A stretch of DNA of 64,000 nt from Solibacillus sp. FSL R7-0682 (GTDB lineage Bacteria; Bacillota; Bacilli; Bacillales_A; Planococcaceae): the NCBI RefSeq assembly GCF_038005985.1, contig NZ_JBBOUI010000001.1, positions 417,501 to 481,500 on the forward strand. Direction: 5' to 3'. The translations under genes were made by a program, and so were the position numbers. Shown here one piece after another: positions 36,282 to 51,106 of the stretch (positions are counted from its first letter, which is position 1; the number at the start of each line of letters is the position of its first letter). Below the pieces are notes generated by a model that saw only the letters and a program-made list of their open reading frames with translations, was not told the origin of the DNA and did not search any database.

Positions 36282-36460
36282 CGTTCTAAATGAAGCAAGA
36301 CTAACTATCTTTGTTTCAGTAGGGAATATAGTATTAGTTTAAAACTTGAAATTAAAGCATATTGTGAGAGGATTGCAATGCTCAGATTATCGAACTAATT
36401 CTGTCAATTTGACATACAACATCTCAGTTGATAGTATGAAAGAAAAACTGAATAGCATAT

Positions 36461-36543
36461 ATTGCGGGGGGACTCTTAGGAGTTGAGAAGGTTAAAACCT
36501 GACTCTTTGAACCTGTCAGTTAACACTGGCGTAGGGAAGCGAT
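36461..36543 (+). ncRNA. TPP (thiamine pyrophosphate) riboswitch
   Basis: The aptamer has P1 arms ATTGC (36461-36465) and GCGAT (36539-36543), the GGGG strand, the TTGAGA element (CUGAGA consensus) at 36483-36488, CTTTGAACCTG (pyrophosphate helix), and the 3' GTTAACACTGGCGTAGGGAAG block. Every conserved TPP block is present in order. It controls the thiM operon through the terminator at 36573. Confidence 0.95.
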
Positions 36544-36572
36544 TCATTAGTTTTATAAGCAATAGTTGAATT

Positions 36573-48957: not shown

Positions 48958-49000
48958 AAAAACATTTTTCACTCACACTAATTGTGGAGGTGAGTGTAGC

Positions 49001-49159
49001 ATGAGTAATAAACATAAAAACAATAAAACGCAGGATAATAAAAAACAGCAAAATCAAAATCAAAATGCGAACAGAGAGCGTAAAAACAAAAACAGAGAAG
49101 AGTTCGCTCAAGAAGTAGAATTTAATCAAAATCAAAATCAAAATCCAAAAAAATGTTAA
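49001..49159 (+). CDS. Small Asn/Lys/Gln-rich basic protein
   Basis: I cannot assign this 52-residue hydrophilic protein. It is dominated by Asn, Lys and Gln (MSNKHKNNKTQDNKKQQNQN) and ends REEFAQEVEFNQNQ...PKKC. The second half resembles the REEYSKEFNQ of the 49917 gene. Low complexity, small size and charge are reminiscent of small acid-soluble spore or coat-associated proteins, but this is inference. GGAGGTGAG lies 8 bases before the ATG, inside a short CACTCAC/GTGAGTG hairpin that could mask it. Confidence 0.6.
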   Translation: MSNKHKNNKTQDNKKQQNQNQNANRERKNKNREEFAQEVEFNQNQNQNPKKC

Positions 49160-49177
49160 GAATTTTTTGAGCTAGCT

Positions 49178-49210
49178 AACCCCAACGCACTTATGGTGTA
49201 TTGGGGTTTT
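49178..49210 (+). terminator. Rho-independent terminator
   Basis: AACCCCAA pairs with TTGGGGTT, with GCAC/GTGT above it, followed by TTTT. Confidence 0.85.
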
Positions 49211-49250
49211 CCTATGTTTTAGATCATTAAAATGAGTTGTTGAGTTAATA

Positions 49251-49483
49251 TAAAAAACCCGGAAAATTAATTCCGGGCATGATAACACTTGCTTTTTCCT
49301 CCATGACACACTGTCATGCTCATAGCATTGAATCTTAAGAATAACCTAAGACAACCGTGCTTTAGCATTGAAGTTGATGGTTATTCAGAGTAAACGATCA
49401 TTCGCACTCATCGGGTTAACCCTCCAGTCACATTGGTTGAAGTGAAATCTTTAATAGTATAGAACAATTGAGGGTTTTTATAC
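49251..49483 (-). ncRNA. Structured transcription unit, copy 1 (forespore-type promoter, terminator)
   Basis: On the minus strand: GTATA (49483-49479), 17 bases, TATACTA (49461-49455), then the leader CTATTAAAGATTTCACTTC, GGAGGGTTAACCCG, ATGAGTGCGAATGA, and about 130 bases later a CCCGGAA/TTCCGGG hairpin (49258-49277) with TTTTTT. The promoter boxes fit sigma-G/F. The ATG at 49411 opens only 8 codons (MSANDRLL). The GGGTTAACCC palindrome, TCTTAAGAT and GACAGTGTGTCATGGAGG regions are shared with copy 2, so a structured RNA is as likely as a peptide gene. It may correspond to the forespore sRNA CsfG of B. subtilis; not verified. Confidence 0.6.
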
Positions 49484-49568
49484 GTAGCAATAATCATTTT
49501 TTTTACTACTTTTGTACAAATGAAACTAATAATTTGGTCAATATAATTAGACTAATTACTGTAAAAAA

Positions 49569-49811
49569 CAAATAACCCGGAATTTTTTAAATTCCGGGCT
49601 TGATTAGCACTTACTTATACTCCTCCATGACACACTGCCTCGCTTTCACATTGTATCTTAAGATTTACCTAAGAAAACGCTGTTTTAGCTTTATTCAGTT
49701 TTGATGGTCCTTCAGAGAAACGGTCATTCGCACTCATCGGGTTAACCCTCCTAGTCATTTGGATTAGAAGTGAAATCTTTAATAGTATAGGTCAGTTTCT
49801 TTTTTTTATAC
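49569..49811 (-). ncRNA. Structured transcription unit, copy 2 (forespore-type promoter, terminator)
   Basis: This repeats copy 1 with the same order and spacing: GTATA (49811-49807), 17 bases, TATACTA (49789-49783), the identical CTATTAAAGATTTCACTTC, GGAGGGTTAACCCG, ATGAGTGCGAATGA, then TCTTAGGT/ATCTTAAGAT, GCAGTGTGTCATGGAGGA and a CCCGGAATTT hairpin (49576-49598) with a T-rich tail. Sequence between the conserved blocks has diverged, which is the signature of selected RNA or peptide elements. The two copies are about 330 bases apart in tandem. Confidence 0.6.
49669..49737 (-). CDS. Possible 22-residue peptide in copy 2 of the tandem unit
   Basis: From the ATG at 49737, 8 bases after GGAGGG, a 22-codon frame reads MSANDRFSEGPSKLNKAKTA plus two residues and stops at TAG. 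In copy 1 the corresponding frame stops after 8 codons. The shared first six residues (MSANDR) come from an identical RNA segment, so this could be structure rather than coding. Translation is uncertain. Confidence 0.35.
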   Translation of the reverse strand: MSANDRFSEGPSKLNKAKTAFS

Positions 49812-49846
49812 ACTAAAGATTTATTTATTATTGGAGGTTGATTTGA

Positions 49847-49933
49847 ATGAAGAATAATCTCAATAAATTTGCACAAATTAGATTAGACTTTTCGGACTTT
49901 TTAGGAGGTGAATTGGATGGCAAAGAAAAATAA
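49847..49933 (+). CDS. Small ORF overlapping the start of the 49917 gene
   Basis: This 28-codon frame (MKNNLNKFAQIRLDFSDFLG to ELDGKEK) has GGAGG 9 bases before its ATG. Its last codons overlap the 49917 gene by 17 bases, and its own sequence carries the downstream Shine-Dalgarno (AGGAGGTG). It may be a leader that couples translation to the next gene. I do not recognise the peptide. Confidence 0.45.
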   Translation: MKNNLNKFAQIRLDFSDFLGGELDGKEK

Positions 49934-50060
49934 AACTAGCTTCAAGAAGGATAAAAAGGAAAATAAAGATACTAACCGTCGTGAAGAATATTCAAAAGAA
50001 TTTAACCAAGTGATTCACAATAACCCACCACAAGAAGTTACAAAGCATAGAGGGACATAA
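49917..50060 (+). CDS. Small basic hydrophilic protein, paralogue-like of the 49001 product
   Basis: This 47-residue protein starts MAKKNKTSFKKDKKENKDTN, followed by RREEYSKEFNQ, which parallels REEFAQEVEFNQ in the 49001 protein. It is Lys/Asn-rich, without a membrane segment or cysteine. AGGAGGTG lies 8 bases before the ATG. As with its neighbour, a spore-associated role is plausible by composition and by the adjoining forespore-type promoters, but unproven. Confidence 0.6.
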   Translation: MAKKNKTSFKKDKKENKDTNRREEYSKEFNQVIHNNPPQEVTKHRGT

Positions 50061-50116: not shown

Positions 50117-51106
50117 TTACTTACCAGTATTTACGTCATCTAGTTTAACATTCAAGACATTAGTGATATCTTTAGCTTGTAAGCCATTAGCTTCACCTAA
50201 GATCTCTTCTACCTCTTTACCGAATTTATCTATATCTGCATTAGCTTTGTTTATTTCTGTATTCGCATCTTCTTGGGCTTGATTGGCTTTGTTTAATTCG
50301 TTGTTAGCAGTTTGAATTTCATTCTCAGCTTTATCTATTTCGAAATTAGCCTTTTCAATCTCTTCATCACCTTCAGTCTTTAACGCATCAACAGAATTAA
50401 GCAAGTTTTGAATTTCTGATGCATCTTTCTCAGCTTTAGCTATAGCTTCATCTAATTCTAATTGGAGCTTGTCTCTCTCCGCTATAGCCTCATTGTACTT
50501 AGCAGTTTGCTCTTCAAGTTGACCTTCTGTTTCTTTAAGCTTTTCCGTAGTTTCTTTTAATGAACTGTTGGCAGTTTCCAATTCAGCTTCTAGTTTAGCA
50601 ATTTGAGCTTTTAACTCCTCTATAAGTGTAGTAGCTGCACTAAGTTCAAGCTTTGTAGCTACTAATTCTTCTTTAGTAGCTGTATTAGACTTTTCTAAAT
50701 CATAGTATTTTTCCTCTAAAGCCTTGAAATTATTACCTACTTCCTCTAGGCTCTTAGTTAGTCCTGCAATTTTCCTATCCTTCTCAATAATTAAGGCATT
50801 TAATTCAGTGATTTGAGTGTTTAATTTTAAAACATCGCCTTTAAGAAGAGTAATAGTATTTTTTTGCTGATTAATAAATGCATTTGCCTTTCCAATTTTT
50901 TCATTAGCTTCGCTTTGTAATTGATAAACTTTGTTAATTAGTGATTCTTGATTTTTGTCGTATTGAACTACTTGTCCAGTTTGAAATGTGATTTTGCTTT
51001 TGATAGCATTCAATGTGTCGGAGCCATCATAAGCTACAACTCCCACTGATGCTGTTGTTAATAAAGAACCTGCCAAAATTAGTGCTTTTCCTGAAAAATA
51101 ACCCAT
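50117..51106 (-). CDS. Exported long coiled-coil protein
   Basis: This 329-residue protein has an N-terminal hydrophobic segment (about 7-26, KALILAGSLLTTASVGVVAY) that looks like a signal peptide or anchor, without a lipobox. From about residue 45 to 310 it is an almost uninterrupted coiled coil rich in Glu, Lys, Leu and Ala, with repeated EINKAN/ELNKAN/EIDKAEN units near the end (about 250-300). It has no known domain. Such proteins serve as cell-surface spacers or spore/cell-division scaffolds; function is unknown. GGGGGA stands 7 bases before the ATG. Confidence 0.75.
   Translation of the reverse strand: MGYFSGKALILAGSLLTTASVGVVAYDGSDTLNAIKSKITFQTGQVVQYDKNQESLINKVYQLQSEANEKIGKANAFINQQKNTITLLKGDVLKLNTQITELNALIIEKDRKIAGLTKSLEEVGNNFKALEEKYYDLEKSNTATKEELVATKLELSAATTLIEELKAQIAKLEAELETANSSLKETTEKLKETEGQLEEQTAKYNEAIAERDKLQLELDEAIAKAEKDASEIQNLLNSVDALKTEGDEEIEKANFEIDKAENEIQTANNELNKANQAQEDANTEINKANADIDKFGKEVEEILGEANGLQAKDITNVLNVKLDDVNTGK

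Follow-up and report, generated by a model that had tools for sequence, protein, structure and literature searches.

A multicopy family of putative forespore small RNA genes with a conserved start-stop mini-ORF in Solibacillus and related genera

Several described systems resemble the locus analysed here in one or more respects. CsfG is a small forespore RNA of spore formers that depends on sigma-F and sigma-G (PMC9147052, PMC3574147); it is 136 nt long, is encoded between ylbG and ylbH, and contains CU-rich conserved stretches (PMC3574147). Bvs196 of Bacillus velezensis is an independent sRNA of 294 nt with a terminator, under the control of sigma-F and mainly of sigma-G, which is located between hinT and ecsA and is conserved in this place (PMC9147052). 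Among multicopy sRNAs, LhrC1 to LhrC5 of Listeria are virtually identical; four copies share a single locus, the fifth is located apart from them, and every promoter has been tested. They are stress induced via LisRK and carry a CU-rich motif, and LhrC pairs with the lapB mRNA (PMC4132741). The decoy RNAs CsrB and RsmX, RsmY, and RsmZ are multicopy RNAs with GGA motifs (PMC4132741). Finally, bacterial minigenes are very short open reading frames (ORFs) that are preceded by a Shine-Dalgarno sequence and exert their effect through their own translation; those described are located within or ahead of other genes, and cis action is reported for the one studied (PMC8708949).

The locus described here is part of the window, i.e., the whole 64-kb stretch of DNA that was analysed. 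It consists of two tandem units on the minus strand, unit A at 49569-49811 and unit B at 49251-49483, each with a conserved RNA core between a promoter and an intrinsic terminator. As originally predicted, the same blocks follow one another in the same order in both units:

49783-49811, minus strand: unit A promoter, GTATA-N17-TATACTA, with the -35 box at 49807-49811 and the -10 box at 49783-49789 (pattern match; the same type is found across the RNA family)
49601-49779, minus strand: structured RNA body of unit A, matched by covariance model R1 with 215.6 bits, terminator excluded
49739-49748, minus strand: P3 hairpin of unit A, GGG-UUAA-CCC, between the Shine-Dalgarno sequence and the start codon
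49669-49737, minus strand: mini-ORF of unit A, 22 codons, MSANDRFSEGPSKLNKAKTAFS, preceded by AGGAGG at 49747-49752; it is among the longer exceptions in the family
49574-49600, minus strand: intrinsic terminator of unit A, a stem-loop followed by a T-rich tail (terminator scan)
49455-49483, minus strand: unit B promoter, GTATA-N17-TATACTA, with the -35 box at 49479-49483 and the -10 box at 49455-49461 (pattern match)
49280-49451, minus strand: structured RNA body of unit B, matched by R1 with 161.7 bits, terminator excluded
49413-49422, minus strand: P3 hairpin of unit B, GGG-UUAA-CCC
49385-49411, minus strand: mini-ORF of unit B, 8 codons, MSANDRLL, with GGAGG at 49421-49425; codon 7 is not a stop, codon 9 is TGA
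49257-49278, minus strand: intrinsic terminator of unit B, a stem-loop followed by a T-run (terminator scan)

The two units share 79% identity across 232 nt (BLASTN, E = 2.5e-45) and are the only two BLASTN matches listed in their own 4.06-Mb genome. With their terminators, the RNAs of the window measure 200 and 210 nt. Exactly two terminators are detected between 49180 and 49920, one for each unit (0.4 expected from shuffled sequences), which, along with the promoters at both, upholds the claim of two transcription units with terminators of their own. A scan of the same interval finds no sigma-70-type promoter at either unit. All blocks listed in the original prediction are present, but one of them, ATGAGTGCGAATGA, is actually the start of the mini-ORF, 9 nt after GGAGG. 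The 5' GATT.CACTT block is present too and is, in addition, complementary to the 3' AAGTG..AATC; this pairing could close the RNA. Each unit most likely represents an independent, sigma-G-driven, terminator-ended small-RNA gene that belongs to a multicopy family.

The two small Lys/Asn-rich neighbours noted earlier are real ORFs. These Lys/Asn/Gln-rich ORFs, at 49908-50060 and 48992-49159 (plus strand), flank the units and have a common NREE or NRREE motif. Counting the window, relatives of one of them adjoin 6 of the 100 loci: those of the 49908-50060 ORF occur beside units at five loci elsewhere. Neither ORF has a Pfam or NCBIfam match at an E value of 0.1, and they are perhaps small spore proteins. 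Beyond them lie a dihydrouridine synthase gene (PF01207) and, upstream of unit A, the gene for a 329-aa coiled-coil protein at 50117-51106 (minus strand), for which no family is above the curated cut-off among the listed Pfam and NCBIfam matches. Elsewhere in the window, a cspA thermoregulator (RF01766; 29915-30246, minus strand) and a TPP riboswitch (36456-36555, plus strand) score above their gathering thresholds.

To build model R1, 16 units were taken from 32 distinct ones, near-duplicates and poorly aligned units being excluded. It matches 62 of the 261 genomes of the window's family, Planococcaceae, 61 of them with a best E value below 1e-20 and one (G033) at 7e-4. The carriers (Solibacillus, Lysinibacillus, and Ureibacillus) represent 6 of the 19 genera overall and include all 16 genomes of the window's own genus, the source genome among them. 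The genomes contain 1 to 9 matches each at E values up to 0.01, a count that includes weak ones, such as the second matches in two Lysinibacillus genomes, G046 and G118, at 26 to 27 bits. A BLASTN search with unit B finds matches in 22 of 101 genomes, its own included; in three of these (G038, G048, and G055), the match covers only the terminator end (query positions 194-232), R1 has no match, and they are not counted as carriers. In the class-wide scan, R1 matches 3 of 398 genomes, all in the window's family, and the 5'-module model matches the same three; matches to R1 and R2 are confined to this family among the 398 genomes, in scans with strict filters that weak relatives can escape. A search limited to exact matches of the 20-mer GGAGGGTTAACCCGATGAGT finds 53 stretches in the species collection, and all but one are titled Lysinibacillus, Solibacillus, or Ureibacillus. 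The one outside these genera is a 4504-base contig of a “Candidatus Kurthia equi” metagenome-assembled genome (G108, 450 contigs), which is probably misbinned, as contamination of this genome is put at 8% and a match to SASP (spore protein) genes is absent from it. The units have no match in the phage and plasmid collections (blastn) or in viral contigs (exact 20-mer), which rules out a phage, plasmid, or viral origin as far as these collections go.

Alignment A4, which was fitted to R1, contains 141 copies from 100 sources, the window included. It omits near-duplicate and overlapping loci and part of the family matches, so these 141 copies are a subset of all. Their occurrence in the window and 99 related loci refutes the possibility, raised in the original prediction, of chance conservation of a single copy. 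A terminator is found directly downstream of 132 of the 141 copies, compared to 42 of 400 controls. In fifteen copies, the middle domain is missing and the length does not exceed 120 nt (the short form); the model also fused four other short units with the unit that follows. In genus g11, several genomes carry copies arranged head to tail with a period of about 177 bp, most with their own promoter and terminator.

Individual loci show further variation. Within 1.4 kb, the locus L072 (2711-4129) contains eight units arranged head to tail, of which seven have the short form, and its genome (G292) holds nine matches. The 5' module, consisting of the UCACUU hairpin and GGAGGGUUAACCCGAUGAG, is repeated within a single promoter-terminator span five times in L074 (18480-18998) and four times in L076 (17122-17559), and each repeat has its own start-stop mini-ORF. 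In L013 (1512-1756), the promoter and the RNA are kept and the usual terminator is replaced by an inverted repeat, GGGGGGTGTCC..GGGACACCCCC. Bacillaceae-1 RNA (RF01690) is found about 1.5 to 6 kb from units of the family, at L074 12501-12672 (two in a row) and at L038 3163-3218.

When the closest two predicted ORFs (45 aa or longer) to the left and to the right of every locus are compared, they form 234 clusters, the largest with 8 members; thus, there is no widely recurrent neighbour, and a general partner gene is rejected. In Rfam 15, no family matches a unit at the gathering score, either in the window or in 20 further loci, and the sub-threshold matches near the units (49100-49950) are at the level of chance (E of 0.49 or worse). 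No description of the family was found in the literature searched, which covers part of the published record. On this comparative evidence, the RNA gene family is real and, as far as found, absent from Rfam.

The promoter pattern G[ACT]AT[AGT]-N17/18-[CT]AT[AT][CA]TA has six occurrences in the 64-kb window, both strands counted, and two of these are the promoters of the units. In the family, the -10 box is recognisable in 137 of the 141 copies; three of the remaining four are internal modules of repeated transcripts and one starts at a run of N. A matching -35 box, G[ACT][AT]T[AG], accompanies it in 130 of the 137, at a spacing of 17 in 127 and 18 in 3. SASP genes, which are sigma-G dependent, were used as the yardstick, i.e., 21 of the 22 PF00269 matches in the same genus, one being without a locus. 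The pattern given above for the window is found upstream of 11 of these 21 loci, with about 0.007 expected for each, a count that was not blind, since the pattern was widened after CATTCTA had been seen (its earlier form required A at the fourth base of the -10 box). Ten of the 11 read GTAT[GT]-N17-CATTCTA. As L203 and L215 overlap and represent one gene, 10 of 20 distinct SASP loci match, and the other 10 lack the pattern. Judged by these boxes, several SASP genes of this genus have the same kind of promoter as the units, the sigma-G type. The boxes had been likened to those of sigma-G or sigma-F; the former is supported, and sigma-F would fit less well, because the -10 box YATACTA is not preceded by GG. 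The RNA is likely to be expressed in the forespore. SASP genes are present in 61 of the 62 carrier genomes, G108 being the exception, and 136 SASP-bearing genomes of the family lack the RNA at the sensitivity of R1, so that sporulation does not generally require it.

The proposed secondary structure of the RNA comprises 32 pairs. P1 joins GAUU.CACUU with AAGUG..AAUC, P2 joins AUGAC with GUCAU, and P3 is the GGG-UUAA-CCC hairpin; the other helices are P4 (GAG..CUC and an inner helix), P5 (CUG/CAG and GC/GC), and P6 (GCA/UGC). In 139 distinct rows of the alignment, 95.5% of the cells pair. Changes on both sides that keep the pairing are seen in 18 of the 32 pairs, compared to 6.7 in shuffled alignments (0 of 500 reach 18), and in 77 cells, compared to 13.9; both figures are favoured by the fact that the pairs were partly picked via covariation in A4 itself and that A4 was fitted to R1. 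When the partners are slid by 1 to 3 columns, 29 to 46% of the cells are paired, and at most 6 pairs show such double changes. The expectation of a conserved RNA with compensatory changes in its homologues is supported. The signal comes from P2, the inner part of P4, P5, and P6; P1 and P3 are nearly invariant, which leaves covariation with little to say on either. The three pairs of P3 are standard in all 139 distinct rows, and in 4 copies the loop letters differ on an unchanged stem. One inner pair of P4 is nonstandard in 57 of 137 rows, and another one covaries (A-U in 93 rows, G-U in 16, G-C in 14, not paired in 14). Including the terminator, the folding z-scores against shuffled sequences are -3.13 for unit A and -2.39 for unit B. 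In some copies, UCACUU/AAGUGA may form a local hairpin just 5' of the Shine-Dalgarno sequence, which would exclude P1 and P2. In the predicted folds (47 of the 141 copies were folded), the Shine-Dalgarno bases are unpaired in 47% and the AUG in 46% on average; at about half, these values do not make the initiation site clearly open.

The 5' part of the RNA contains a mini-ORF. GGAGG-N9-ATG is present in all 141 aligned copies, found by a model that was built on the 5' block and is biased toward copies that keep it. The frame has 5 to 8 codons in 126 copies, 9 to 13 in 6, and 22 to 27 in 9 (5 to 27 overall), which places the 22-codon frame of unit A among 15 longer ones of 9 to 27 codons. The stretch GGAGGGTTAACCCGATGAG is identical in 128 of the 141 copies; like the GGGUUAACCC block, it is conserved beyond the needs of initiation, so that it may have another or an additional role. 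The stop was examined in the 111 copies that have codon 8 in register, the other 30 being outside this test. In 53 of them, the only stop comes no later than codon 7, in 40 the only one is at codon 9, and 18 have both, and none has neither; the 63 distinct sequences are divided into 27, 23, 13, and 0, respectively. If the two stops were independent, about 19 copies with neither would be expected, and none of 2000 tree simulations of the codon-9 stop gave so low a number at any of four rates. The tree was built without the tested columns, and parsimony assigns 12 and 18 changes to the two traits. TAA, TAG, and TGA are all used at codon 9. In the other two frames, 99 and 20 of the 111 copies have no stop at all in codons 2 to 10; in the second of these frames, 91 copies have one early stop that comes from conserved letters. 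At the second base of codon 7 and the first base of codon 9, the combinations are A/A in 50 copies, T/T in 36, A/T in 22, A/G in 2, and C/T in 1; T/A, which would remove both stops, is never seen.

The encoded peptide is a different matter. The residues after the initial Met-Ser are variable, and among 50 distinct starts the second base of codon 3 shows the most variation and the third base the least. A function of the peptide is rejected, as its amino acid sequence is not kept. As judged from the sequences, there is selection to keep an in-frame stop soon after the AUG, and the peptide is not kept. The suggestion of a functional RNA or a tiny peptide thus holds for the conserved RNA and for a start-stop frame that is kept, but not for the peptide sequence. 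The stop pattern, which was tested with the tree taken into account, is the strongest evidence suggesting that ribosomes read this RNA.

The reading that we prefer, with somewhat less than even confidence, is that the units encode small RNAs under sigma-G, that their 5' module places a ribosome on a start-stop mini-ORF, and that engagement of the ribosome, rather than the peptide, is their function. Engagement itself should matter because the peptide is free to vary, and it appears the most likely function because no other part is as conserved as the ribosome-binding block, which is kept by the short form and by the repeated modules. The RNA, about 200 nt long with its terminator, would be clamped by the pairing of its 5' and 3' ends in P1 and P2. 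In its 5' module, a Shine-Dalgarno sequence is followed by a small hairpin and then by an AUG, and the stop usually comes 5 to 8 codons later. As the Shine-Dalgarno sequence lies directly beside the 5' strand of P2, a forespore ribosome binding there would open this helix and, running through the mini-ORF, melt P3 and P4. In most copies, termination would take place on the 3' strand of P4, where codon 8 is the CUC of this helix. The most likely effect would be to occupy or damp the forespore ribosomes late in sporulation; alternatively, engagement could protect the RNA or free its 3' part, as in a switch. A bolder version, about which we are more doubtful, is that this free-standing, arrayed forespore RNA has initiating and stopping as its only conserved output and loads, idles, or parks ribosomes at the onset of dormancy, its dosage being raised by tandem duplication and module repeats.

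Of the competing explanations, one that ranks close behind ribosome engagement, and that we regard as possible, is a trans-acting forespore sRNA that base pairs with mRNAs through the exposed 5' GAUUUCACUU and 3' GUGUCAUGGAGG..AAGUG, the ribosome being a helper that only protects or opens the RNA. Independent multicopy genes with their own promoter and terminator in varied contexts would suit such an sRNA: the multicopy LhrC pairs with an mRNA (PMC4132741), and translation of a minigene may protect an mRNA from ribonuclease (PMC8708949). It would leave unexplained, however, why the translation start itself is the most conserved block; furthermore, P1 already accounts for the 5' block, and in the short copies the middle is missing along with some of the 3' region.

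A reading of the 5' block as a structural RNA motif, with the AUG and the stops incidental to it, is rather improbable. The constancy of the third base of codon 3, the covarying inner pair of P4, and the P3 stem that is kept under a varying loop are all in line with such a motif. It does not predict, though, that two alternative stops replace each other, that T/A is absent where base pairing would allow it, or that the other frames are free of this stop pattern.

Slightly less probable still is a protein-binding RNA, e.g., a decoy that captures CsrA through GGA motifs, as CsrB and RsmZ do, with arrays and repeats multiplying the sites. All 141 copies have GGA in the Shine-Dalgarno block and 109 of them have AAGGA, with a mean of 4.3 GGA per copy; two genomes have the 5' module four or five times in one transcript, and CsrA is encoded in the source genome and in 61 of the 62 carriers. 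Yet mononucleotide shuffling already gives 3.2 GGA per copy, unit B lacks AAGGA, CsrA is found in 234 of the 261 genomes of the family regardless of the RNA, and the conserved stop codon would have no explanation. Finally, a leader (attenuator) of a downstream gene is very unlikely: attenuators do combine a short ORF with a terminator behind it, but the next notable ORF downstream of unit B is convergent, downstream neighbours differ between loci and often point in the opposite direction, and in arrays the next downstream element is another promoter.

Ribosome profiling in B. subtilis has revealed two translation-silencing events in sporulation (PMC11339384). Translation silencing in the maturing spore has been little explored. 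If a forespore RNA in many copies is indeed under selection for start-stop translation, with no peptide being kept, it would directly qualify as a candidate part of this process, in a family whose genomes gave no CsfG match above the cut-off. Even with an ordinary function, this would be an RNA family not found in Rfam 15 and a seemingly non-coding RNA that is suggested to be read by ribosomes.

Compared to the systems outlined at the outset, the family resembles CsfG in that it consists of small RNAs of spore formers, for which forespore control is predicted from the SASP-like promoter, but kinship to CsfG (the ylbH leader), which had been brought up in the original prediction, is not supported. 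The RF00516 model has no match on 49100-49950 at E values up to 10; its best score in the source genome, 23.5 bits against a cut-off of 50, falls on another contig, and it exceeds the cut-off in the B. subtilis control but in none of the 261 family genomes. The neighbours differ as well, since the units lie among the Lys/Asn-rich ORFs, the dihydrouridine synthase gene, and the coiled-coil gene and not between ylbG and ylbH. In contrast to CsfG, the units are about 200 nt long and multicopy and contain a mini-ORF, and their conserved block is rich in G. Bvs196, compared by description only, is likewise an independent, terminated sRNA, but it is longer than the 200 and 210 nt of the units and has other neighbours. 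The layout of LhrC, several copies with a promoter and a terminator each, is also seen here, with up to 9 matches in one genome; LhrC differs in its stress induction, CU-rich motif, and mRNA target, and a mini-ORF is not mentioned in the available part of the report (PMC4132741). Unlike CsrB and RsmX, RsmY, and RsmZ, the family has GGA motifs only moderately above the shuffled level and is built around a Shine-Dalgarno-AUG-stop architecture. In this last respect it comes closest to the bacterial minigenes: a Shine-Dalgarno sequence is followed by an ORF of 5 to 8 codons in the great majority of copies, unit A being an exception. Here, however, the minigene is carried by a free-standing, terminated, multicopy RNA.
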